Origin: Acidobacteriaceae bacterium
GTDB taxonomy: Bacteria; Acidobacteriota; Terriglobia; Terriglobales; Acidobacteriaceae
Length of the DNA: 64,000 bases
Assembly (NCBI GenBank): GCA_025355505.1
Contig: JANXZM010000100.1
Coordinates: 1-64,000 of the forward strand
Reading direction: 5' to 3'
Shown one piece after another: positions 2,824 to 64,000 of this stretch. The translations under genes and the position numbers were made by a program. How positions within the stretch are numbered: the first letter of the stretch is position 1; the number at the start of each line of letters is the position of its first letter. The notes under the pieces were generated by a model that saw only the letters and a list, made by a program, of their open reading frames with translations, did no database searches and was not told the DNA's origin.

Positions 2824-4643
2824 TGGAAACCATGACTGAAAAAAATACTGGAACGAAGCATAAACGGCTGAGCGCTTGGGTGGAAGAAGTTGCCCAGCTC
2901 TGCCAGCCGGATCGAGTGTACTGGTGCGACGGTTCGGACGAGGAATATCAGGCCATTCTACGGCGGATGGTACTGACGGGCACCGCCATCTGGCTGGCCG
3001 ACGAGAAGCGCCCGAACAGCATCCTGGTTCGGTCGAGTCCCGGCGACGTCGCACGTGTCGAAGACCGCACCTTTATCTGTTCGCGAATCCGTGAGGAAGC
3101 TGGGCCCACCAACAACTGGGAAGATCCCACGGCGATGAAGCAGAAGCTGCAAGGGTTGTTCGCGGGTGCGATGTCCGGCCGCGTCATGTACGTGATCCCG
3201 TACAGCATGGGCCCCATCGGCTCGCCAATTGCGAATATCGGTGTCGAGATCACCGACTCCCCTTACGTTGTGGCCAGCATGCACATTATGGCGCGGGTCG
3301 GCTCTCGCGTGCTCCAGGTTCTCGGAAGTGAAGGTGCATTTGTGCGCGGCCTGCACTCCATCGGCGCTCCCCTGGCTCCGAACCAGGCGGATTCGACCTG
3401 GCCCAACAATGCCCAGGAAAAATATATTTGCCACTTTCCGGAGACCCGCGAAGTCTGGTCTTACGGTTCCGGCTACGGTGGCAACGCTCTCCTCGGCAAA
3501 AAGTGTCACGCCCTGCGCATTGCTTCCGTGCAAGCTCGAGACGAAGGCTGGATGGCCGAGCACATGTTGATCCTGAAGATCACCGACCCCTCCGGCCGGG
3601 TCAAGTTCTTCACCGGCGCGTTCCCCTCATCTTGCGGCAAGACGAACCTTGCAATGCTGATCCCGACCATCCCAGGATGGAAAGTCGAAGCCGTGGGCGA
3701 CGACATTGCCTGGATGAAGTTCGGCGACGATGGCCGCCTCTACGCCATCAATCCCGAGCGCGGCTTCTTTGGCGTGGCTCCCGGAACCAGCATGAAGTCG
3801 AACCCCAACGCCATGCTCGCCGCCACGAAAAACGCCATCTTCACCAATTGCGCCATGACTCCCGACGGCGACATATGGTGGGAGCAGATGACTGCGGAAA
3901 AGCCCGCCGAATTGATCGACTGGTTGCGCCGTCCGTGGACTCCGGCTTCTGCTCGCAAGGCAGCTCACCCCAATGCCCGCTTCACCGTTCCCGCCAGCCA
4001 GTGCCCGGTGATTGCGCCGGAGTGGGAGGATCCCAAAGGTGTGCCGATCGACGCCATCCTTTTCGGCGGGCGGCGCGCTGGCATTGTTCCGCTGGTCACC
4101 GAGTCCTTCAATTGGCGGCATGGAACGTTTCTGGGCGCGACCGTCAGCAGCGAAACCACTGCCGCCGCCGCCGGCAAAGTCGGCGAACTTCGTCGCGACC
4201 CGATGGCCATGCTCCCCTTCTGCGGCTACAATATGGGCGATTACTTCGCCCACTTTCTCAAGATCGGCGCCACGCCCGGTGCCAAGCTGCCCAAAATCTA
4301 TTACGTGAACTGGTTTCGCACCGACGACAACGGAAAATTCCTCTGGCCCGGATACGGCGAGAACAGCCGCGTCCTGAAATGGATTTTTGAGCGCTGCGAT
4401 GGCAAAGTGCACGCGGTCGATACGCCCATTGGCAGGCTTCCAGAGCTTGCGGATCTTGATACCAAGGGACTCGACCTTTCTCCCGCGGATGTTGCCAAGT
4501 TGCTCAGCGTGGACTTGCAGGGTTGGCATGCCGAAATCCCATTGATCCGCGAGCACTTTGCCAGGTTCGGCAACCACCTTCCCGAAGGCTTGAACCGGGA
4601 AGTCGCCGAACTGGAAGACCGTCTGGCGAAGGCCAAAAAATAG
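2824..4643 (+). CDS. pckG: phosphoenolpyruvate carboxykinase (GTP)
   Basis: Full-length PEPCK-GTP signatures including [13 protein letters not shown]; alternative start at 2802. Confidence 0.95.
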
Positions 4644-4807
4644 ATCGACTGCTGTCACCTCCGAGACGCAGAGAGCGCCGAGAAAGTCTCGTGTCAAGTT
4701 TTCCTCGGGGTGAAACCGGTTGTCTTTCGAAACCGCTAAGATAAGGTGTTCTCGGCGGCCTCCGCGTCTCGGCCGTGAACAGGTCTCTCTAGGGGTAAAT
4801 CTAAAAA

Positions 4808-5065
4808 ATGTTCGCCCGGAAAATCCGCGTGGAATACCAGCACGAAGGACAGCTTCAACCTTGTCCTTTGAAATGGCTCGACAATTTCAGCATGCGCAAC
4901 TTCACCAACGCATCGGTCTTTGACGACACGCTGCCGGTGGCCGACGGCTGCCTGGAAATTGGAACGCATGTCCCGCTCGATCGACTCCGGGATGCGATGG
5001 AAGACTGGTTTCGCCGCAAGAGCTATCTGCCCAAAGACGCAACCCTGGTGCTGACCCTGAGCTAG
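4808..5065 (+). CDS. hypothetical protein
   Basis: 85 aa ORF. Confidence 0.6.
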   Translation: MFARKIRVEYQHEGQLQPCPLKWLDNFSMRNFTNASVFDDTLPVADGCLEIGTHVPLDRLRDAMEDWFRRKSYLPKDATLVLTLS

Positions 5066-5184
5066 CGGCGAGGCCGGGCTGCGCTCAGCTTGGACCCTTC
5101 GTCTTCGCTCAGGGCAGGCTCGCGAGCACGTCCGTCTCTCCACACAAAGGGAGGCTTTCAAAAATGCGCGTTTCTGCGCGGCAC

Positions 5185-5442
5185 TTACTCCTGTTTGGCG
5201 GCTTCGGGCTGCTTGGCAGCTGCTTCGGCTTTTCCTGCATCGCTTTTGGCGTACTTGCGGCGGAAACGCTCGATGCGGCCGGCGGTGTCCATAAGCTTCT
5301 GCTTGCCGGTAAAAAACGGGTGGCAGGCGGAGCAGATTTCTACGCTGATGCCGCCCTTGTGGGTGGAGCGAGTAGTGAATGCGTTACCACAGGCGCAATG
5401 CACGTTGATCTCGCCGTAGCTGGGATGGATGGCTGCTTTCAT
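5185..5442 (-). CDS. rpmE: 50S ribosomal protein L31
   Basis: [28 protein letters not shown]...[16 protein letters not shown]. Confidence 0.97.
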
Positions 5443-5544
5443 GTCGGTTCCTAAATCCTCGATTCAGACATTCGATTCTACCGGAGTTAAGAAGGATTCA
5501 GCAAGGCTGGTGTTGGCTCTTGCTCTTAGCTGACTATTCCCAAA

Positions 5545-5578
5545 GCAAAACGGCAGGGCCGACCCCCTGCCGTTTTGC
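5545..5578 (-). terminator. Rho-independent terminator downstream of HU gene
   Basis: Perfect 14 bp arms GCAAAACGGCAGGG / CCCTGCCGTTTTGC with 6 nt loop. Confidence 0.85.
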
Positions 5579-5603
5579 TCGTATCCGAAAATTCTGGGGC
5601 CCC

Positions 5604-5900
5604 TTACTTACCTTTATTGACTACTTTCTTAAGTTCATTCCCGGGAGTGAATTTGGCGACTCTACGGGCAGCGATCTTGATGGTGGCACCCGTCTGCGGG
5701 TTTCGGCCATTGCGGGCCTTGCGCTGCGAAACGGAAAACGTGCCGAAACCGATCAAGGCTACTCGGTCCCCTTTTCGAAGGGCAGCGGTAACGCTGTCCA
5801 CGGTGGTGTCGATCGCGGTCGTCGCCTGGGCCTTTGTAATGTTGCAGGCTCCGGCGATCCGGTCAACCAGATTAGCTTTATTCATGCTCTCTCCTAACAC
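5604..5900 (-). CDS. HU family DNA-binding protein
   Basis: MNKANLVDRIAGACNITKAQATTAIDTTVDSVTAALRKGDRVALIGFGTFSVSQRKARNGRNPQTG. Confidence 0.97.
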   Translation of the reverse strand: MLGESMNKANLVDRIAGACNITKAQATTAIDTTVDSVTAALRKGDRVALIGFGTFSVSQRKARNGRNPQTGATIKIAARRVAKFTPGNELKKVVNKGK

Positions 5901-6285
5901 TAGTCGTTACGGTTCCCGCGCATCAGCCGGGGAGGAAAGCTCAACGCGCGAGCACCGGCGATGGCAATTCTCGCCCATACTGCGGGATTGTCAAGGGGAA
6001 ACACGTGCCAGTTGCCGCTTTTAACACCTGAGGCGAACGGTTGGGTAGTGATTGGAGCATGAGTCGACGGCGCCAGTTCTGGTTTATTGATTGGCTACGC
6101 CTGCGAGCTACGGGCTGCGAGCCCGCGGTTTTCCTCGCTTCTCCTCGCTTTTCCTCGCTTCTCCACAATCTGGCGCTGCTCTCCACAGGATGTGCACAGA
6201 GAGGAAACGGTTTCCAGTTGCGGCGCAGGCGGGTTCGGGTGCAGAGTTTAATTACACAACTTGAGTTCAGAAGAAGTTCAGACCT

Positions 6286-7062
6286 ATGAAAACAGCAAGC
6301 GAAGTTTGCCCGGCGTGCGCGGGCTCAGGATGGAAGCCGGTTTCCGGAACGCCGGACGGCGGCGTCACCCGCTGCGATTGCCAGTTGCGGGCGCGTGGCG
6401 GCGCCATGATCGCGGCGGCGCGAATTCCCAAGAGATATGAACATTGCGAGCTGTCGAACTTTACGACGGATTTCCCGAGAGCCGATCGCTCGATTGCGCT
6501 GGCCCAGATCAGCGCCTCGCGCTTCGTGCAGGAGTTTGATCCCCGAGACGGGGCTGGCCTTCTGCTGGTCGGCGGGATCGGGACCGGCAAAACCCATCTC
6601 GCGGCGGGCATTCTCAAGGAACTCATTGCGGTCCGAGGAAGCGCCTGCCTTTTTTGCGACTATCGCGAACTGCTAAAACAGATTCAGAACTCCTACAACG
6701 ATTCCGTCAAGGCCACCGAGCTTCAGGTGCTGCGGCCGGTGTTTGAAGCCGAGGTGCTGTTGCTCGATGAACTCGGCGCCGTGAAACCGAGCGAGTGGGT
6801 GTGGGACACGGTCAGCCTCATCCTTAACACGCGCTATAACGACAATCGAACGACCATCATCACCACGAATTTTGCCGACGAGCCGGCTGCGAGTGTGGCT
6901 CGATCGTCGTCATTGTCGCCGGCGCGGGCAGCCGCTCGCGAAGAAACTCTCGGCGACCGCATCGGCGAGCGTATGCGCTCCCGCTTGCACGAGATGTGCC
7001 GCATTGTGAAAATGGACGGGCCCGACTTCCGCCAGAAGTTTAAGAGCGCCAGTTTCGGTTAA
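6286..7062 (+). CDS. DnaC/IstB-like ATP-binding protein
   Basis: N-terminal Cys pair (CPACAGSGW), Walker A GGIGTGKTHLA, Walker B LLLDELG. Confidence 0.9.
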   Translation: MKTASEVCPACAGSGWKPVSGTPDGGVTRCDCQLRARGGAMIAAARIPKRYEHCELSNFTTDFPRADRSIALAQISASRFVQEFDPRDGAGLLLVGGIGTGKTHLAAGILKELIAVRGSACLFCDYRELLKQIQNSYNDSVKATELQVLRPVFEAEVLLLDELGAVKPSEWVWDTVSLILNTRYNDNRTTIITTNFADEPAASVARSSSLSPARAAAREETLGDRIGERMRSRLHEMCRIVKMDGPDFRQKFKSASFG

Positions 7063-7155
7063 GGCGCTAACCACGAAAGTCCCTAACCACAGGGGACACG
7101 GAGGGCACAGGGGAACACCGGGAAAACAAGGCGTCCTCGGCTGTAGAATCGGCGA

Positions 7156-8337
7156 GTGCTGACCGAACGCATCGAGTTCCGGCCCGAAGTTGACGCCGAG
7201 GTCTTTTCCGGCGTCGCCGCCGCTCCGGCTGTGTTTCTTTTGCGCGGCGAGGACGCGAATTCCGAGCCTTACGTCAGCAAGACCGCGAACCTTCGGCGGA
7301 GGCTGCAGCGGCTGCTTTCCGCTCCGGAAGAGCGGACGAAACGCCTCAACCTGCGGGATCGCGTTCGATGGATTGAATACACGCTGACCGGCTCCGACTT
7401 TGAATCGGCATTCGTGCTCTATCAAGTCCTGCGCGCCTCCTTCCCCAAGACCTACGCGAATCGCCTGCGGCTGCGGTTCGCTCCGCTGGTCAAGCTGCAT
7501 CTGGAAAACGAATTTCCCCGCGCCTCGATCACCATGCGGCTGGGACGAATTTCGGGAAAGCGGATTTCGACAAAAAACGTTTACTACGGGCCGTTTGCTT
7601 CGCGCGTGGCGGCGGAAAAATTTATGAACGACGCGCTCGACTTTTTCAAGATGCGGCGCTGCGTGGAGGACCTCCATCCCGATCCGAAATTTCCCGGCTG
7701 CGTTTATTCCGAGATGAAGATGTGTTTGGCGCCCTGTTTTCGCGGCTGCAGCGATGACGAGTACCGCGCCGAGGTGGTGCGGGTCGAGAATTTTCTGGAC
7801 TCGCGCGGCGAATCGCTGAAGCGGCAGATGGCGGCGGAGCGCGAGGACGCGTCGGCAAAGATGGAATTCGAGACGGCTGCCGCCATTCATGCGCGCCTCG
7901 ACAAGCTCACCCCCGTGCTGCAGCAACTGCCGGAATTTGTCCGCCGGATTGATCAGTCGCACGCCGTGATCGTACAGAAGTGCGTACAGAAGTTCCTGCA
8001 AAAGTCAGCGCCCTCGGAGAGCGTCGCCTTGTTTCGCGTCGACAGTGGCGCAATCACCGGGCCGTTTGAGTTTCCGATCTCCGGCGGGGAACACACCAAG
8101 TCGCAGTCGATGGAAGCGCGCATCCAAGCTGCGCTCGCGGCATTTCCCGCGGCCCAGCCGGCGAGTGCGATTGAGCGCATGGAGCATCTGGCGATCTTGA
8201 AGCGCTGGTGCTATCGCGGAACCCGCGCGGGCGAAATTTTCTTTGCCGATCCCAAGGGAGAACTGCCAATGCGGCGGCTGGTACGGGGGATTGGACGAGT
8301 GTACAAAGGCGAAGCGCCAGAGATTCTTCCCGCGTGA
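7156..8337 (+). CDS. UvrC-like GIY-YIG protein lacking the C-terminal RNase H-like half
   Basis: GTG start; N-terminal UvrC-like region, Cys cluster CVYSEMKMCLAPCFRGC, UvrB-binding-like segment; 393 aa only. Confidence 0.8.
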   Translation: MLTERIEFRPEVDAEVFSGVAAAPAVFLLRGEDANSEPYVSKTANLRRRLQRLLSAPEERTKRLNLRDRVRWIEYTLTGSDFESAFVLYQVLRASFPKTYANRLRLRFAPLVKLHLENEFPRASITMRLGRISGKRISTKNVYYGPFASRVAAEKFMNDALDFFKMRRCVEDLHPDPKFPGCVYSEMKMCLAPCFRGCSDDEYRAEVVRVENFLDSRGESLKRQMAAEREDASAKMEFETAAAIHARLDKLTPVLQQLPEFVRRIDQSHAVIVQKCVQKFLQKSAPSESVALFRVDSGAITGPFEFPISGGEHTKSQSMEARIQAALAAFPAAQPASAIERMEHLAILKRWCYRGTRAGEIFFADPKGELPMRRLVRGIGRVYKGEAPEILPA

Positions 8338-53263: not shown

Positions 53264-53583
53264 CTACGGGTGATTCACCCCGCTAAGAAATCCTCCCAGA
53301 TGTCCAGTCATCGCCACCACCGCCACGGCCAGAACCTGCAGCACCCACCGCAAAGCCGGAAGCTTGCCGCCGCGGCGTTTGTACCTCCATTGCAGCCACC
53401 AAACCGCCGCGATCAGCACCAGCGATGCGCACCCGAAGGCCAGATGCATCAGCAGGATTCCTTTCAGCCTTCGTCCATCCAGTTCCCACTGCCAAGCCAG
53501 CAAACCGGTCAGCACCGCCGGCACGGCCGCCAGCAGCGCGCCGCAAAAGTTACAGTACGCAACCAGCGCCAGATCTTTTCGGC
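53264..53583 (-). pseudogene. N-terminally truncated DUF2231-like membrane protein
   Basis: LVAYCNFCGALLAAVPAVLTGLLAWQWELDGRR...HLAFGCASLVLI...; 5' end runs into the antisense of a sigma-factor remnant. Confidence 0.5.
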
Positions 53584-53587
53584 GAGT

Positions 53588-53664
53588 CCAGGTCGCGGTT
53601 GTCCCGCGCACGCCGGGCGCTGCGCGACGCGGTGCAGCAGAAGCTGCACAGGAATTCACCATGA
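53588..53664 (+). pseudogene. C-terminal remnant of ECF sigma factor
   Basis: ...SRSRLSRARRALRDAVQQKLHRNSP*; TGA overlaps the anti-sigma ATG (ATGA). Confidence 0.65.
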
Positions 53665-54455
53665 CCGAAGATAGGACCGAAGAGATGACAGGAGGGGCGA
53701 CCCACGAATCGTGGACCGGAAAGCTGGACGCCTACCTCGACGGTGAACTCGATTCCAGTCAGATGCACGAACTGGACCGGCACCTGCGCGAGTGTTCAGC
53801 ATGCACTGCGGAAGCTCTGCGCCGGCTGCAGTGGAAACGCGCGATTCATTCGGCGGGCCAGTGTTACCTGCCCGATCCTGCACTGCGCGAGCAAATTCAA
53901 AAAACCATTTCCCCCGCTAAGCCGGTGTGGTGGCAGTGGCGGCCAGCGTTTGCCGCCGCAGCGGCCGTCTTGCTGCTGTTCGCTGGAGCCAGAATGGTTC
54001 AGCAGAAAATAGTCTGGCCGAAAGAACATGTGGTTCAAGAAAGCAGGATCGTGAGCGAATTGGCCGATTTGCACGTTGCGACCCTGGCGAGTGCGAATCC
54101 AGTCGATGTCGTATCCTCCGACCGACACAACGTCAAACCCTGGTTTGCCGGAAAGATTCCCTTCAGCTTCGACCTACCCGAGTTAGAGGGTTCGCAATTT
54201 GAGTTGATTGGAGGAAGAGTCAGTTATCTGGAGCAATCGCCCGGCGCGCAACTACTTTTTCGAGTCCGCAGGCACCAGATCTCGATGTTCATTTTTCAAG
54301 TAAGAGCCCTGCCCGTGGATTTCGCGAGTGCGGGGGAGATAAATGCGCGGTCCTTCCATCTGAAAAGCTGGCAGCGCGACGGCCTGCAATATTTCCTGAT
54401 CGGCAACGTGGCGACGGAAGACCTGGGCACGTTAAGCAATCTTTTGGGCAAATAG
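53661..54455 (+). CDS. anti-sigma factor with zinc-finger-like (zf-HC2) N-terminus
   Basis: LDAYLDGELDSSQMHELDRHLRECSACTAEALRRL, single TM helix. Confidence 0.85.
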   Translation: MTEDRTEEMTGGATHESWTGKLDAYLDGELDSSQMHELDRHLRECSACTAEALRRLQWKRAIHSAGQCYLPDPALREQIQKTISPAKPVWWQWRPAFAAAAAVLLLFAGARMVQQKIVWPKEHVVQESRIVSELADLHVATLASANPVDVVSSDRHNVKPWFAGKIPFSFDLPELEGSQFELIGGRVSYLEQSPGAQLLFRVRRHQISMFIFQVRALPVDFASAGEINARSFHLKSWQRDGLQYFLIGNVATEDLGTLSNLLGK

Positions 54456-54593: not shown

Positions 54594-55235
54594 CTAAGTA
54601 TCGGTCCCAACGTAGCACACTCGGCCCACGATACAGTCGCCGGGCTTCTGGCCGTCTCCCAACATTATTACTTCACTCGGGTAGGCCGGGTTGTGCGGGC
54701 GGAGGATCAAGTGATCGTTTGCGGTTTCGACATACTTGATCGAGCAAGTCTGATTCTTGCGCGCGGCGTAAATGTTGCTTTCGTCCTTGCGGTAGCGAGT
54801 CGTCGAATTATAGTGGCGGTCAAGCAGCAGGGTAGCGCCGGGCGTGATGCGGGGATCCATGCTCATTCCTTCGTGCGCGTCGGCTTTGACGATCACAAAG
54901 CGTTCCCAGGCACTGCGGTTGCCTTCCATTTCCGCCTTCAAGCGCTTCAGAACAATCTTCCTAAACTTCAGCATCTCCTTGACGTGCTTGCTCATAATCA
55001 CCGCTTCGCAGGCTGCGATTTGCGGGTCGGCGACCATGACGTTGTCGAATTCGTCGTCGCTCGGCGGAAGGATTGAGGCGCGCTTGTTGACTTCGGCGGA
55101 ATCGATGAGATCCAGCACCGAAAAATGCTGCACGTTTAAAATTTTATTTATGCCTTCCAGGCTAAGTCCGCGCTTGCTGTTGAGGAAGTTAGAGACGTGC
55201 GCTTGCTTGAAGCCGGCCTGTTCCGCCAGCCGCAA
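54594..55235 (-). CDS. XRE-HTH / S24 LexA-like phage-type repressor
   Basis: GFKQAHVSNFLNSKRGLSLEGINKIL and C-terminal S24-like domain; coding homology continues upstream to 55298 through an in-frame TAA. Confidence 0.8.
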   Translation of the reverse strand: MRLAEQAGFKQAHVSNFLNSKRGLSLEGINKILNVQHFSVLDLIDSAEVNKRASILPPSDDEFDNVMVADPQIAACEAVIMSKHVKEMLKFRKIVLKRLKAEMEGNRSAWERFVIVKADAHEGMSMDPRITPGATLLLDRHYNSTTRYRKDESNIYAARKNQTCSIKYVETANDHLILRPHNPAYPSEVIMLGDGQKPGDCIVGRVCYVGTDT

Positions 55236-55330
55236 GCCAGTGAGTTCCCCTGCGTCAATGCGTTTCCAAAGGGCCTTGCGGAGATTTTCTTAAAGCATGC
55301 GAAATTTCATCGCGGGAGTGTAACGCGCTG

Positions 55331-55349
55331 CAATAGCACATTGCTATTG
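55331..55349. promoter_or_regulatory. candidate repressor operator
   Basis: CAATAGCA-CAT-TGCTATTG perfect palindrome between divergent genes. Confidence 0.65.
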
Positions 55350-55426
55350 TTTACATAAGTATAACATCCATAAGGAAATGCACTTCTTGACTTAGCGGTT
55401 ATTGAACTATAGGATGATGTTCTTAT

Positions 55427-55696
55427 ATGTCTCAAAATGCACTTATACCGCAGGAAAGGTTATCAGCCATGATAGAAGTACAATCCCCCGAAACCGAAGA
55501 AAGAAGCTTTGGACAGTTCCGCCGGAAGGTACGCTCGGCGGAAGTGCTCTCGTCAGCCATGGAACGGTTGTTGCAGGTCATTCACTTCAGCGGGCGTTTG
55601 AGCGTGGTAGTTCAGAACGGGCAAGTGCTCAAATCTGGCTATGAGGAAGGTTACTTCCGGCAGCATGAGTCTGGAGTAGCCGCCAGGCTGCAGTAA
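55427..55696 (+). CDS. small hypothetical protein (DUF2292-like C-terminus)
   Basis: IHFSGRLSVVVQNGQVLKSGYEEGYFR. Confidence 0.55.
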   Translation: MSQNALIPQERLSAMIEVQSPETEERSFGQFRRKVRSAEVLSSAMERLLQVIHFSGRLSVVVQNGQVLKSGYEEGYFRQHESGVAARLQ

Positions 55697-55745
55697 AAGC
55701 TTTAATCCCAACTAAATAGCAATACAGGTCATCGTAAGAGAAACG

Positions 55746-55783
55746 AGCCCTGGGCCGAGAAAATCGGTGCCAGGGCTTTTTAT
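55746..55783 (+). terminator. Rho-independent terminator
   Basis: AGCCCTGG-GCCGAGAAAATCGGTG-CCAGGGCTTTTTA. Confidence 0.85.
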
Positions 55784-55820
55784 TGGTTCAAGGTTTTTCA
55801 TTTCATAGAAAGAGGCAATC

Positions 55821-56117
55821 ATGAACTTTACAGGCAGGATGGAAGGCCAGGAAACCCAAGTTAGATTGAAGTATTGCGAGCGGTGCGGGGGATTGTGGCT
55901 GCGTCCGCAAGGAACAGAGGGCGTGTATTGCGGCAGCTGCCGGGTCCGTTTGGAGGGAATGGCAAACCCTGAAGAGGCGCCGCAGCGCAAGACGCGCCGC
56001 CGCAAAGCGCGCGCGCGGGGAAGGGATTTTCAAGCAAATGCTCAAGGAGCAGACCTGCAGATTTCGGCCCGGATTGACTATCTGCAGGGCGTGGCTGCGA
56101 TGGAGGTGCGGGCATGA
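55821..56117 (+). CDS. small zinc-ribbon protein
   Basis: YCERCGGLWLRPQGTEGVYCGSCR. Confidence 0.75.
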   Translation: MNFTGRMEGQETQVRLKYCERCGGLWLRPQGTEGVYCGSCRVRLEGMANPEEAPQRKTRRRKARARGRDFQANAQGADLQISARIDYLQGVAAMEVRA

Positions 56118-56698
56118 CAAGGGCGCAGACGACGAAACCACAAGGATGGAGTCTGATGGGGCAGGCGGAACCTCCGCCGTCCGTGGTATTTGGCGAAACG
56201 GAGATGGAGCTGTCTCCCTACCGCAGGCGCACAGTGGCGCTGCTGCGGCGGTATGCGCGGGCCTCGGTGGAGGTGGGAAGGCTGCCGTCGCTGCTGGGGC
56301 GCGAGTTCTTCCGGACGCGGGTCACCTCGTACACGATGAGGAACTTTGAGGACGTTGTGATCTTTGTGGCCGACATGGAGAAGGCGATCGAGAAGCTGAG
56401 CGCAATTGAAAAAAAGCTGTTGGGCATGAACATTCTGGAGGAATACAGCGTAGACGAGGTTGCGCGGCTACTCGGTTGTAACCCTAAAACGATCCGACGG
56501 ATCCTCCCGGATGCGCTCGACCAGCTGTCGCGGATACTGCTGGCGGGTGGTTTGATGGATAAATTACCTTTGGTTACAAGGGGTCGGGAAAGTTGTCAAG
56601 AGGGTAAAAACCACAATTTTGAGGTAAGTGACTCAAAGGAAGGCGAATATAAATATCGGAAAAATGTCCATCCAGCCCCTTCCAATTTGATATCCTAA
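56114..56698 (+). CDS. sigma-70 region 4-like HTH protein
   Basis: LSAIEKKLLGMNILEEYSVDEVARLLGCNPKTIRRILPDALDQLSRIL; ATGA overlap with upstream gene. Confidence 0.75.
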   Translation: MTRAQTTKPQGWSLMGQAEPPPSVVFGETEMELSPYRRRTVALLRRYARASVEVGRLPSLLGREFFRTRVTSYTMRNFEDVVIFVADMEKAIEKLSAIEKKLLGMNILEEYSVDEVARLLGCNPKTIRRILPDALDQLSRILLAGGLMDKLPLVTRGRESCQEGKNHNFEVSDSKEGEYKYRKNVHPAPSNLIS

Positions 56699-56730
56699 AC
56701 ATAAGAGTCGAGAAACAAATAAAAGTTTTG

Positions 56731-56760
56731 AGGGGCGCGACGCAAATCGCGCCCTTTTTC
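56731..56760 (+). terminator. Rho-independent terminator
   Basis: GGGCGCGA-CGCAAA-TCGCGCCCTTTTTC. Confidence 0.8.
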
Positions 56761-56775
56761 TATTTAGGCGGGCAG

Positions 56776-56916
56776 ATGGCGAAGGCAAGGAAGAGTCGAT
56801 CGGAATCGCGTAAGTCGAAGGGAATGACGGCGGAGCCCAAGACGGCGGACGAACTGCGGAACGCGCATGACCACGGGATCGCCGGGAAAGGTGACGTAGA
56901 ATCAGAATCATCGTAA
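56776..56916 (+). CDS. small hypothetical basic/acidic protein
   Basis: 46 aa MAKARKSRSESRKSKGMTAEPKTADELRNAHDHG... Confidence 0.45.
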   Translation: MAKARKSRSESRKSKGMTAEPKTADELRNAHDHGIAGKGDVESESS

Positions 56917-56960
56917 AACGCAGATTGAGGATTGGGACGGGAAGGCGAACGGAACGCAGC

Positions 56961-57425
56961 ATGGACATGACGTGGGTCACGGAACGAGTGGCGCTGGGCG
57001 GCGGGATATGGAATGCGCGAAACATGGAAGAACTGGCGCAAGCCGGGGTTACGCACGTGCTCAACATGCAGATCGAGTTCGATGACCGGCCGCTGGCGGA
57101 GCCGCTCGGGGTTCGAGTGCTGTGGAATCCGACCGACGACGATTTTTTGCCGAAGCCCGTCGAACTGTTGAAGCGCGGCGTTGATTTTGCGCTGGCGGCG
57201 CTGGACGAGCCGGAGGCGAAGGTTTATGTTCATTGCGCCGCAGGGGTACACCGGGCTCCGATGATGACGCTGGCGGTACTATGCGCAATGGAGTGGGAAA
57301 TAGAAGCGGCCATGGTGCTGATCGAAACGCGAAGGCCGGTGGTTGACTTCGCGGATGTGTATGTAGAGAGCGTGCGGCGATTTTTGGAGTCGCGAGTTGA
57401 GAGCAAGCCGCAGAGTTCAAACTAA
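56961..57425 (+). CDS. dual-specificity protein phosphatase family protein
   Basis: VYVHCAAGVHRAPMM (HCxxGxxR P-loop). Confidence 0.88.
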   Translation: MDMTWVTERVALGGGIWNARNMEELAQAGVTHVLNMQIEFDDRPLAEPLGVRVLWNPTDDDFLPKPVELLKRGVDFALAALDEPEAKVYVHCAAGVHRAPMMTLAVLCAMEWEIEAAMVLIETRRPVVDFADVYVESVRRFLESRVESKPQSSN

Positions 57426-57533
57426 CAATCGAAATTGAGTGAGGGGAATGTGCAAAAAAGGCGCCGCTCGGCAGGGCGGCTTTCTTATTGGCCCGAATTG
57501 GGGTTGCATGCGCTCACGAGGAGAGAACAAGAG

Positions 57534-60500
57534 ATGCCCAGATCGTTGGGGTTGAAAAAGAATTGTCCGATGGCAGCGGAAGTGATGATATGCGTTTTGC
57601 TGGCGCTGTTGATGACGTTGACCTTGTCGAGTAAGTTGCAGGCGCTAGGGCCGGCGCTAACGACGATCAGCGATACGGTGTATCGGGCTGACGGAAGCGC
57701 CGCATCGGGTACGGTGCTAATTTCATGGCCGTCGTTTCAGACCGCCATGGGAGATGCGGTGGCGGCTGGCAATCTAGCTGTGACCTTAGGGCCATTAGGC
57801 GCGTTCAGCGCGCAACTGGTTCCCAATGTAGGGGCGTCTCCGGCGGGAACTTACTATGTCGTGGTTTTCCAACTGAACGACGGAAGCGTCCGGACGGAAT
57901 ATTGGGCAGTTCCCGCGACTTCGCCGACGACGATTGCCTTGGTGTTGACGACACCGGGTACAGGGCTTGGGAACCTCGCCGTGACGCAGCAATACGTGAA
58001 TGCAGCGGTGGCGAATCGCGCGCTTGACGCAACGGTGGTGCACTTGGCGGGAACGGAGACGATCACCGGCACGAAGCAGTTTGCAGTTCCTCCAGCGCTT
58101 CCGGCGCCGAGCGGGGCCAATGACGCCGCGAACAAGATTTATGTGGATACGGCAGTGGCGAACGTGGGTTCGGGAGCATTCGTCCCCCTGGCGGGCGGCT
58201 CGATGACTGGTCCGTTGACCCTGCCCGGAGATCCGACCGCACCTAACCAGGCCGCCGACCGGCACTATGTGGACAGTGGGCTGTCGGTGAAAGCGGACCG
58301 GGTGAATGGAACTGTTCCGCCCGGGGAATTGGGAGCGGGAATCGCCAGCGCGGCTACTTGCTTAATCGGTAACTCGACGTGGGGATCTTGTGGTGGCGGC
58401 GCGCCGGCCGGGATTACTTATGCTACGACGGCGCTGAATTGGACGCAGGTCATCTCCAGCTCTTTAACAGGAGGGTCGCAGGCAACAGTTACGCTAACTC
58501 CTTGTCCGATTGGCATTGATACAACGAGCGGAGCCGGGTATCAGATTTTTCTTTCCGGGGGAGGAAACAGCGAAGCTGTCAGCGTAATCACCACCCCCGG
58601 GGGATGCACGTCAGGAGCAGCGTCGGGAACGATCAAGTTCACTCCATTCAATTCCTATGGGGCCGGATACACACTGGGTTCGGCCTCCTCCGGTATTCAG
58701 GAGACGTTGAATGCGGGTTGCGGAGTCGATACAACCGCATACAAAAACAGCCAATGCAATGTAACGATTCCAGCAAGCGGGCCGAACGGGACTGTCACCA
58801 CTTACAACGTGTTGGGCACGATTTATTTGCATTCCAACCAATCTGTTTTAGGCGGTTACGGAACATCGCTTAACTGCCTTGAACGCGGCGCCTGCTTACA
58901 GATTGGCGATCTGCAGAATTCCAACAACTATACCAGCAACACCGTTACTGGGCTGAGCTTTCGCACGCCGGTGAATCTCGCAAGCAACCCGGCATTTGCT
59001 GGAGTCGCAATCACCCAAACGCGAAGGACATCCCAGGTTGCAACCATCACGACGGCCAGCGCGCATGGCTTTCGGGTGGGAGATATGGTGACGATCCTGT
59101 TTACCGACAGCAGCAGCTACTGGGGCGATGCGACGATCACGGCGGTGCCGAGCTCAACGACGTTCCAGTACGCACACTCTGGCGGTGACATCGCGGTGCA
59201 GGCAAGTCCCGGCGTAGTGGCGCTGGCGTATGTAGCGGTGTTAGATAACGCTGTAAATACTCATCTGATCGACATTTCATACGATAAGGTGGGAGAGAAT
59301 GGCGCGTTCAACAATTTTTTCGATTTATGGGACGACGAGAACGTGACCATCGAGCATTTCAACAATCAAGCTATACCGCTGAACAACAATGCGAACTGGA
59401 CGGGGTCGTTTGTGTTCTCGGCAGGAAACCAGAGCACTCAGATTGCTCCGGTGATCACGCTGCGCGACTCGAGCATTACCGCGAATTACTCGAACGGGGT
59501 GACTGTCTACAATTCAAACGGACTCTATATTGAAAATACCGTCCTTCAAGCGACGGGTCCGTGGCAGGTGTATTCATCCAACACCACCGGAAACTTTCAA
59601 GGAGCCTACCTTAAGAATGTGTATTCCGAGAGCACCACTGCTCTAAACCCGCTCTCTCCACCGCGGTCTCCCTTTCCAGGTCTTGGAATTGCCGGCTTAA
59701 TAGCCGGAATATCGAGTGGAGCGGCTAGTTTTCAGATTGCGGGGAATGGCGGTGTTCTGGGAGCGTTTGCAACGGGGGGGGCAGGTTCTACGCCCTATTC
59801 ATACTTCATCGTAGCCAATGATACGACTGCCGGGACGCAAACCTCTCCGATGCAGATTCTCAATTGGCTTTCTACCGGAAGCGATTCTATTCCAGTTCGT
59901 TGGCCGAGGGTAGCGAACGGGAATGATGCCATCACTTATGACGTGATCCGGATGACGACACCATCTGGAGTCGGTGCAGTCTATCCCTACAACGGGGGAT
60001 GCGTTGGTGGATCGGGCGGGGCATGTGGATATGTCGCAACGGGAGTTCTGCAATCTGCGGCGTGTTCTGGTGGATTAGTGTGTACTTACACAGATAACGG
60101 AGCGTCGTCCACCTCCGCGTACACGATCAAGCAGGCTAGTTACGGTGGAAACCTGAACTTCTGGCCTGGTTCGGTGGTATCGGTGAACACGAGCATCAAG
60201 GTAGATGTAGAGCAATCGAGCGTCGTAGGAGTGGGGCTGAATGGAAATCCGCTTCAAATCGCGAATCAGTGCACGAACTACGGAACAACGTCGCCGGGAG
60301 GCTATACAGCATGTCTAGCGAGCGTGACAGCCGCCAACAATAGCGTTCCCAATCAATCAGCCACGATTATCACCGATGGGACAGAGGCAGGAGGCGGCCT
60401 TACGCTATCCAAGGGGCGACTGAATTTCTCCACCAGTCCGGGAGCGAGTCTTACCGCGCATCACATCATTACGCTGATTGATTCCCAGCCAGCGTTGACG

Positions 60501-63500: not shown

Positions 63501-64000
63501 GCTCCAACGATCCCGGTCAATGGAGATATGTGGACTACGACCACAGGCTTATTTGCTCGGATCAACGGCGGAACGGTCGGGCCATTAGCAGCCACTGCCG
63601 TCAATAGCGTGTTTGGGCGAACTGGGGCAGTTGTGGCGGCATCGGGAGATTACACCGTCGCGCAAGTAACGGGAGCGGCGTCGCTGGCGTCGCCTACTTT
63701 TACCGGCACGCCGGTCGTGCCGGGATACGTGACCAGCGGCACGGCGGTGAACGGACACGCGCTTTCGTCAAATATAATTGTGTCCGCGTCGGACCTAACG
63801 ACTGGGACGGTTCCCACGGCTCAACTACCGGCGCCTACCTGCTCCTGGATCACAGTGCCTACGCAGGGCGGCTCGGGCAATGTGTTCTCGGGAACAAATA
63901 AGGCCATCGTGTGGGGTGTTTATAACCCCTATCCGTGTGTAACCAGCAATGTTGCCTACGTCGTCGGCACAGCGGATAACACGTCAGACAATTATGCGCT
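57534..64000 (+). CDS. giant secreted phage-tail-fibre-like repeat protein, incomplete at window end
   Basis: GAGGAG ribosome-binding site then ATG 57534; frame checked line by line with no stop to 64000 (at least 2,155 codons); signal peptide-like N-terminus; repeats SVFGRTGAVVAASGDYTVAQVTGAA and (G)xETITGxKTF. Confidence 0.9.
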   Translation, partial: MPRSLGLKKNCPMAAEVMICVLLALLMTLTLSSKLQALGPALTTISDTVYRADGSAASGTVLISWPSFQTAMGDAVAAGNLAVTLGPLGAFSAQLVPNVGASPAGTYYVVVFQLNDGSVRTEYWAVPATSPTTIALVLTTPGTGLGNLAVTQQYVNAAVANRALDATVVHLAGTETITGTKQFAVPPALPAPSGANDAANKIYVDTAVANVGSGAFVPLAGGSMTGPLTLPGDPTAPNQAADRHYVDSGLSVKADRVNGTVPPGELGAGIASAATCLIGNSTWGSCGGGAPAGITYATTALNWTQVISSSLTGGSQATVTLTPCPIGIDTTSGAGYQIFLSGGGNSEAVSVITTPGGCTSGAASGTIKFTPFNSYGAGYTLGSASSGIQETLNAGCGVDTTAYKNSQCNVTIPASGPNGTVTTYNVLGTIYLHSNQSVLGGYGTSLNCLERGACLQIGDLQNSNNYTSNTVTGLSFRTPVNLASNPAFAGVAITQTRRTSQVATITTASAHGFRVGDMVTILFTDSSSYWGDATITAVPSSTTFQYAHSGGDIAVQASPGVVALAYVAVLDNAVNTHLIDISYDKVGENGAFNNFFDLWDDENVTIEHFNNQAIPLNNNANWTGSFVFSAGNQSTQIAPVITLRDSSITANYSNGVTVYNSNGLYIENTVLQATGPWQVYSSNTTGNFQGAYLKNVYSESTTALNPLSPPRSPFPGLGIAGLIAGISSGAASFQIAGNGGVLGAFATGGAGSTPYSYFIVANDTTAGTQTSPMQILNWLSTGSDSIPVRWPRVANGNDAITYDVIRMTTPSGVGAVYPYNGGCVGGSGGACGYVATGVLQSAACSGGLVCTYTDNGASSTSAYTIKQASYGGNLNFWPGSVVSVNTSIKVDVEQSSVVGVGLNGNPLQIANQCTNYGTTSPGGYTACLASVTAANNSVPNQSATIITDGTEAGGGLTLSKGRLNFSTSPGASLTAHHIITLIDSQPALTQATWGYRPPASANDTWIGTDLPSGGVGLGSGQLAFGAPITITNYIAQTGDGIHANWSERLSASLKEFNVAAKFDQSVTIAGLSNGCLNIASGVITSTGAACGTGGGTVSSVFGRSGAVVAASGDYAVSQVTGAAVDASVVHNTGVETIAGAKAFTSNVTISGNLLLPQGNAFVPAAGGIGLDTAAGLPVVNIGGTTHQVAFTSSNISGQAGSALALAAVPTQCSGSFATGIAANGNANCTTPNVIQLSETTPPAGIPNWGVFWFDSATHTPRVLENNGQVIQLGMTNLFNSDPGGDPADNLEERNGAVAQNLRVYSSFVNNTTWQRTSLGFDATDNYAVVRSENATSATAPGLGFWIGSGLKWVVDAAGNLKPFTDNTFNLGSDGGNAAKSIFAKTSFNSVVFGRNDFEIPNDVPTGTVVNQLAVFNTNSPSQAVVASTSSTNGVIGLVQGGAGKSGNAVITWRGYAYCIFDNATTAGDAVIASTGTAGDCHDSGSGAQPAAQLIGYVDVTNAISGQTNGIRVSIQPPQGGGVGTVASVFSRTGAVTAASGDYSVSQVTGAAADSAVAHLAGAETITGPKTFSSDVTLSGNLNVAGNINQTGTGPTQWSGKKWAGTTVTVPGGMDFSLGVGSDNTFKCQLTSGASCMGGGVVASVFGRTGAVVAGSGDYSVGQVTGAAAIASPTFTGTVAGVTATMVGLGSVTNNAQTQASIVPNTVPSAGQILVGNAGGTAFGIVTTSGDETMSAAGVTTNTKINGTTVPTNSAADQLIGTSASATGIWLTVPACADASGNHLNFTHAGGITCGTTSSGASAVLSVFGRTGAVVAVSGDYTVAQVTGAASLASPTFTGTVITSASVAGGSGLNVPHGSAPAAPVNGDLWTTTAGLFGRINGATVGPFGSGGSMTWPAAAGIAVYAGASAWGTSLTAPMGPLVGTTDTQTLTGKTLDGVSPATMAFVDATSSIQTQLNNKATIASPTFTGTVTTPASVVGGSGLNIPHGSAPTIPVNGDMWTTTTGLFARINGGTVGPLAATAVNSVFGRTGAVVAASGDYTVAQVTGAASLASPTFTGTPVVPGYVTSGTAVNGHALSSNIIVSASDLTTGTVPTAQLPAPTCSWITVPTQGGSGNVFSGTNKAIVWGVYNPYPCVTSNVAYVVGTADNTSDNYA

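Follow-up and report, generated by a model that had tools for sequence, protein, structure and literature searches.

The window studied here is the stretch of bases 1-64000 of the 126161-base contig JANXZM010000100.1 from an Acidobacteriaceae bacterium (assembly GCA_025355505.1). Close to its right end it carries a phage-type regulatory module (54594-57425) followed by the gene of a giant secreted protein. Comparison with related genomes indicates that both belong to a phage-derived particle cluster of about 19-29 kb which runs on past the window edge (coordinates above 64000 are contig coordinates in the same numbering). On balance we consider it probable that domestication of this cluster predates the diversification of the Acidobacteriaceae (Terriglobales, Acidobacteriota), that the cluster has been inherited vertically since then and that its nature is most likely that of a gene transfer agent (GTA)-like element. 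The module most likely controls the particle cluster as a whole, the exported giant protein being one of its outputs.

As a yardstick we used the six criteria of Kogay 2022 (PMC9662315), three of which can be judged from sequence. Homologues of caudoviricete-derived particle proteins are present as genes, namely those of terminase, portal, adaptor and tail tube. The cluster is fully endogenised, as it is chromosomal, has fixed neighbours and contains no integrase or replication gene that we could find. Its descent is mostly vertical and congruent with that of the host (the rpoB tree has seven of the eight splits as well, distances correlate with r=0.86, and each genome has a single copy). The other three criteria, namely packaging of mostly random host DNA, a genome exceeding the capacity of the head and delivery of DNA to other cells, are beyond sequence, and we therefore file the cluster as a GTA-like candidate and not as an established GTA.

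Distribution, chromosomal location and descent

The gene of the capsid-like protein was surveyed in 249 genomes of the order, in 31 sampled genomes of the family and in 266 other genomes of the phylum. It occurs in exactly one copy in each of the 157 positive genomes of the order (157/157) and is found in 25 of the 31 family genomes, while none of the 266 others possesses it. A search of 50,697 phage records with the capsid yielded no match. Portal and SIG, the sigma-like protein of the regulatory module, are each present once per relative genome, on the same contig and almost everywhere in the same order, the few double portal matches being due to genes whose parts lie on two contigs or in two pieces. 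Of 120 relatives, 57 have SIG, each in one copy. Cluster copies in records labelled Verrucomicrobia (L153) and Rhodanobacteraceae (L170) most likely reflect binning contamination.

The order of genes seen in the window genome is found in 14 genomes, in 11 of which, i.e. in all whose stretch reaches far enough, the cluster faces the gene of an E2 acyltransferase. In a wider set of loci with this order the facing E2 gene is present in 27 of the 42 which include enough downstream sequence. A second order (REP-ZNR-SIG, head genes, giant gene, terminase, portal) is observed in Edaphobacter/Granulicella-type genomes and has a left neighbour gene of its own which is common to 11 of 13 loci. From these recurrent neighbours it follows that the cluster occupies at least two ancestral fixed places and does not represent scattered insertions. 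In about one third of the first-order loci the neighbours are different, which means that the cluster has been moved or its surroundings have been rearranged. The first-pass annotation had supposed a domesticated phage-like island and had proposed to examine whether the neighbourhood is conserved; the gene order proved to be conserved in relatives across the family, so that the island withstands this comparison. In one genome (G066:C7) SIG is encoded on the other strand at a distance of 22 kb from the portal gene, the cluster being split or rearranged there.

The concatenated tree of ten cluster proteins from 11 genomes shares seven of its eight splits with the rpoB tree, compared to a mean of 0.23 and a maximum of 4 in 5000 label shuffles. 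The portal-only tree of 24 genomes shares six of 21 splits (shuffles at most 3), and the portal distances correlate with those of rpoB with r=0.86 (shuffles at most 0.46). The G+C content of the cluster agrees with that of the chromosome. From the regulators to the tail-tip gene it spans 18.7-29.5 kb in the eight genomes in which this was determined. The window genome probably comes from a draft assembly of metagenomic reads, its near relatives being bins from peat and permafrost.

The particle genes and the selection acting on them

The right flank of the giant gene begins with BHEL, a beta-helix/deacetylase-like secreted protein (64348-66744). It is followed by the large terminase TERL (66772-68331; phrog_2, 1.7e-26) with invariant ATPase and nuclease residues; its closest solved structure is that of T4 gp17, a headful enzyme. 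Between terminase and portal, nearly all genomes with the gene order of the window harbour a HipA-like kinase and DUF3037 proteins (68595-71165), in the present case the kinase at 68595-69401, a fusion of DUF3037 with an S24 domain at 69479-70252 and a further DUF3037 protein at 70362-71165. The fused copy, which occurs in part of the window's genus and shows GD/ESM and AAG motifs, could constitute a damage-responsive piece. The portal gene (71395-72690; PF04860, 2e-41) precedes those of a 187-aa protein (72802-73365), a 143-aa protein (73436-73867) and the capsid-like protein of 323 aa (74024-74995), which owes its name to operon position and conservation. Thereafter follow a head-tail adaptor (75023-75712; 7e-12), two small proteins (75709-76119 and 76208-76726), a protein of 350 aa (76648-77700) assigned as tail tube from its predicted fold, a tail-tip-like protein (77808-80153) and the last listed ORF of the cluster (80150-80446). 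The host E2 acyltransferase gene is located after the end of the tail-tip gene, in opposite orientation. The model of the 350-aa protein is of low confidence (pLDDT 54); its best matches are tail-tube proteins of siphophages with an E value of 6e-9. Profile searches of the PDB with the tail-tip, tail-tube and capsid proteins returned nothing useful.

The first-pass annotation had noted that no integrase, capsid or terminase was visible. With respect to the integrase this holds, as none was recognised among the cluster ORFs examined, whereas the apparent lack of the other two was an effect of the window edge: the terminase and the inferred capsid are encoded on the right flank. Likewise, no replication gene was recognised in the cluster, and the cluster of the window genome contains no tRNA gene. 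A candidate for a small terminase between SIG and the giant gene, present in seven genomes, was dismissed as it shows no convincing family match.

Rates of substitution were calculated between the window genome and G008, its nearest relative. The lowest dN/dS values are found for capsid (0.03), HipA-like kinase (0.03) and portal (0.05), while the terminase amounts to 0.12, most head and tail genes to 0.09-0.15 and the tail tube to 0.22. The flanking host genes, with dS similar to that of the cluster, range from 0.10 to 0.11. Across the structural genes dN/dS is mostly 0.03-0.3, and the cluster is retained over tens of genera.

The regulatory module and the giant exported protein

All parts which had been named for this region, i.e. 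an S24-type repressor, a palindrome, a zinc-ribbon protein overlapping a sigma-like protein by ATGA, a phosphatase and the giant ORF, are indeed present, as borne out by profile matches and sequence. The leftward gene REP (54594..55286, minus strand) encodes a repressor consisting of a Cro/CI-type HTH and an S24-like C-terminal domain (PF00717, Peptidase_S24, 2.3e-07; phrog_4, transcriptional repressor, 5.2e-13). Homologues exist across the family, with 31% identity even in the distant genome G069. In the window genome the reading frame (54594-55310, minus strand) is interrupted by a stop at codon 7 (MKFRML*ENL), while it is intact in relatives. An Ala-Gly or Cys-Gly cleavage site is absent from the linker of 13 of 16 REP proteins including that of the window, and it is therefore unlikely that REP is an SOS-type self-cleaving repressor. 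The window's genus has the Ser-Lys dyad, while G052, G040, G042 and G069 have Ala-Arg or Pro-Arg in its place and G054 and G050 an altered version; with the dyad lost or altered in six lineages, we regard self-cleavage of this type as improbable. The losses fall on lineages on the side of Acidobacterium, which we take to be among the compared genomes.

Between REP and the rightward genes lies an operator-like inverted repeat (CAATAGC-ACATT-GCTATTG, about 55332-55350). A palindrome with such an 8-bp arm is seen in 3.6% of dinucleotide shuffles; at the same position G010 possesses a perfect palindrome with 12-bp arms, which occurred in none of 1000 shuffles. The AATAGC/GCTATT arms are also present in G008 and G010, and half-sites are found in other relatives. 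Most members of the genus show a TATACT-like box about 10 bases upstream of the REP start codon, and in the window the inverted repeat lies beside such a TATACT element. Ahead of the rightward operon a scan revealed a sigma70-type promoter-like sequence (TTGACT-17-TAGGAT, 55387..55415, plus strand), the TTGAC of which recurs in relatives when compared by eye. In G008 (L055, G008:C42, about 3440-7840) a 4.4-kb insert with a tRNA-Ile gene parts REP from the rightward operon.

The rightward operon (plus strand throughout) opens with a small conserved protein (55427..55696, probable start 55469) which occurs in the genus and in several other genera. It had been described as DUF2292-like, an assignment unsupported by Pfam, where DUF2292 is not matched at E values up to 1; the best match is Ribosomal_S21 with an E value of 0.043, which is below the cutoff, and the label S21 used here derives from this weak match. 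The next gene, ZNR (55821..56117), encodes a zinc ribbon (CERCGGLW..VYCxxC) with two CxxC pairs, both of which are retained in 20 of 20 genomes examined. Its end overlaps by ATGA with SIG (56114..56698), a sigma-70 region-4-like HTH protein (PF08281, Sigma70_r4_2; 28.9 bits, cutoff 25.7) which carries an additional, conserved N-terminal half. Pfam and PHROG searches recognised region 4 alone and no region 2, and SIG may possibly act as a sigma4-type recruiter of RNA polymerase. After the small ORF SML comes DSP (56925..57425), a dual-specificity phosphatase (DSPc, PF00782, 2.4e-10). Its HCxxGxxR loop reads HCAAGVHR and is identical in all 17 genomes which have DSP; the gene is missing from G040, G042 and G069.

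Strong terminators had been postulated between several of these genes. Terminator-like hairpins do emerge from a scan between SIG and SML (56730-56757, plus strand) and at 57463-57480, and a further one after S21 (about 55745-55784) was read by eye, but the excess of such sites is modest (7 seen versus 3.6 expected).

The giant gene, GIANT, extends from 57534 to 64334 (plus strand), i.e. beyond the end of the window at 64000. Its start is probably the ATG at 57534 and not the listed one at 57435, because a terminator-like hairpin falls inside the listed N-terminus. The fibre-like product combines a signal-peptide-like N-terminus, a TTISDTVYRADG domain and BppL_N/fibre repeats. The signal-peptide-like start and the TTISDTVYRADG-type domain are kept in nearly all genomes, distant genera included. 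Virion fibres are normally assembled in the cytoplasm; the predicted export of GIANT is atypical for such a fibre and would fit a module with a surface-protein output of its own.

From these parts the following course of events can be proposed. REP, bound to the putative AATAGC-GCTATT operator between the divergent promoters, would keep the rightward operon off. Upon relief of REP the sigma70 promoter would yield S21, ZNR and SIG, and SIG, made together with ZNR, may bring RNA polymerase to the particle genes past the terminators. The T4-gp17-like headful terminase would then fill a small capsid via the portal, putatively with mostly host DNA, and the particle, presumably assembled with its tail tube, would be released.

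Regulators retained in the absence of virion genes

Within the window's genus SIG is present in 18 of 24 genomes while portal is present in eight, and few parts of the cluster are retained as widely as the pair of REP and the sigma-like protein. At least four relatives (G010, G016, G006 and G071) have lost all virion genes and have kept S21-ZNR-SIG-DSP, accompanied by REP in G010, G016 and G071. Neither portal nor tail-tip gene was found anywhere in these four genomes, where the E2 gene directly follows the phosphatase gene and remains of the fibre genes. The retained regulators show dN/dS values of 0.04-0.66 in the tested pairs (G010, G016, G006), which corresponds to purifying selection. Long giant ORFs persist in G010 (1905 aa) and G016 (1273 aa) with dN/dS values of 0.05-0.22, whereas G006 and G071 have no more than a short remnant of the giant gene.

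Weighing of alternative explanations

Several observations speak against a GTA-like nature of the cluster or against its strictly vertical inheritance. The capsid-like protein, named by its position, has no Pfam or PHROG match even at E values up to 3-5, and its AlphaFold model (pLDDT 32) failed, the underlying alignment being too narrow. The cluster also yielded neither a lysis gene nor a tape measure. In the window genome nonsense codons interrupt both REP and, early on, the tail-tip gene, where a stop at contig position 78057 replaces a tryptophan which is conserved in the intact genes of relatives; the consensus may be in error here, or the copy may be in decay or released from repression. 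Capsid or portal is missing in about one fifth of the family genomes and in 16 of the 24 genomes of the window's genus, from which we conclude that the element is dispensable. Finally, relatives of the capsid with 63-65% identity are present in four large viral contigs (L198-L201, 74-214 kb) whose surroundings are otherwise different, and hence some exchange with phages happened. Besides the capsid these contigs contain no further cluster gene except for a relative of PROT in L199; ORFs resembling tRNA nucleotidyltransferase, ThyX and a kinase were read in them by eye.

PBSX of Bacillus subtilis is a domesticated defective phage with a local repressor which packages host DNA. The cluster might have an analogous task, i.e. 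to pack host DNA without delivering it and to kill or outcompete relatives. The same anatomy would be expected in this case, namely vertical inheritance, packaging genes with terminase, a tail and no integrase, and a tail for which no tape measure was found may not inject. We nevertheless regard this explanation as unlikely, as no lysis or toxin gene was recognised in the cluster and as the constraint on capsid and portal, the strongest in the cluster, is easier to reconcile with a role for packaged DNA than with tails that kill on their own. A distinctly less probable view is that the surviving function resides in a regulatory module which drives the exported giant protein and the phosphatase, the virion genes being optional. 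The four virion-less genomes with their constrained regulators, the long giant genes of G010 and G016, the conserved signal-peptide-like N-terminus and the excess of SIG over portal in the genus all agree with it. Yet the majority of family members retain the virion genes under strong constraint, DSP is missing in three genomes, and the giant gene survives as a short remnant in two of the four. The idea of the first-pass annotation that repressor and sigma-like factor control a surface protein thus retains some ground, since regulators and a long giant gene persist without virion genes in G010 and G016, although the module more likely controls the whole particle cluster. As a self-contained island of regulators and surface protein it is ruled out for most of the family by the virion genes on the right flank.

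An ordinary family of temperate prophages infecting Acidobacteriaceae, as annotated in Eichorst 2018 and Tunturi 2025, appears very improbable. Virion genes and a CI/S24-type repressor would be expected in such phages, which have been published as proviruses, and fragments are deposited in IMG/VR. Temperate prophages are, however, marked by a patchy, multi-site and host-incongruent distribution, while the present cluster is restricted to one family, occurs once per genome next to fixed neighbours and yields trees congruent with that of the host, on which grounds we reject this explanation. In addition, integrase and replication genes were not recognised among the cluster ORFs (attachment repeats were not searched systematically), and the IMG/VR contigs (L173-L197, 73-97% identity) are mostly short and display the gene order of the bacterial element. 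They are probably fragments of bacterial chromosomes mis-called viral, and counts of soil viruses may perhaps be inflated by them. For the same reasons (lack of a recognised integrase, a single copy at fixed loci and divergence in step with the host) the extension of the right flank, in spite of its virion genes, did not uncover a complete ordinary prophage. The nonsense codons of the window genome and repeated deletions within the genus could also point to a neutrally decaying prophage remnant. This has next to no probability in view of dN/dS values of mostly 0.03-0.3 and retention over tens of genera; neutral decay is refuted for the family, though it may be true for the window genome alone.

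Relation to known systems

GTAs with a known genetic basis have been formally classified for Alphaproteobacteria and Brachyspira only (PMC9662315, PMC12946183), and the literature searched yielded no description of a GTA in Acidobacteria. Like RcGTA and the Rhodogtaviriformidae, the present cluster comprises vertically inherited, phage-derived genes for head, packaging and tail, is widespread in one lineage, is usually annotated as prophage, follows the phylogeny of its host and has slowly evolving capsid and terminase genes (PMC9662315). It differs from RcGTA in its phylum, in a capsid that matches neither solved structures nor phage records and in its local CI/S24-type repressor, sigma4-like regulator, giant exported fibre and HipA-like kinase. 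With PBSX it shares, as far as its gene content describes it, the state of a domesticated phage under a local repressor, while lysis and killing functions, in contrast to PBSX, were not found.

Parts of the cluster have been reported before. The prophages of 'Cluster 153' in Eichorst 2018 include copies from Koribacter, Terriglobus, Terracidiphilus and KBS 89 (PMC5900883), and Tunturi 2025 describes Terriglobales 'group (ii)' proviruses related to that of Koribacter (PMC11924767). The Koribacter prophage at 5.15-5.19 Mb of NC_008009 corresponds to our cluster at 5.158-5.198 Mb of G054:C1, and further loci matched here lie on the KBS 89 scaffold and in the T. roseus region at 150-180 kb. In the provirus descriptions of these two papers the elements figure as predicted active prophages or proviruses, with fixed locus, co-diversification, selection and single copy number unreported there. 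The evidence on fixed locus, co-descent and selection recasts these published 'proviruses' as a probably domesticated cluster inherited with the host.

A farther-reaching proposal, which may be correct and which we put forward tentatively, is that most of this dominant soil family carries an independently domesticated acidobacterial GTA under the control of the local repressor and the ZNR/SIG activator, that this activator also drives the giant surface protein, which would co-regulate particle production and the cell surface, and that the particle genes can be lost while regulator and surface protein persist. If this were true, host-controlled exchange of DNA in soil would have a separate ancient origin, and loci counted as proviruses in soil viromes would become host genes. 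Cultured strains with complete genomes carry the cluster and would allow study of why cells keep such particles.

Adjacent genes

The small charged protein SML (56776..56916, plus strand) between SIG and DSP is poorly conserved, its sole relative being a 116-aa ORF in G008. On the left flank of the cluster several members of the genus encode a DUF2231 membrane protein (minus strand) and a zf-HC2 anti-sigma-like protein (plus strand) whose starts overlap (window 53264-54455). On the right, just beyond the start of the E2 gene, secreted proteins of 259, 726 and 237 aa and a papain-like peptidase are encoded (contig 82246-87348; L003:8346-13448). The 726- and 237-aa proteins have relatives in L111, L141 and L146, where these are encoded inside the cluster, upstream of the terminase gene.

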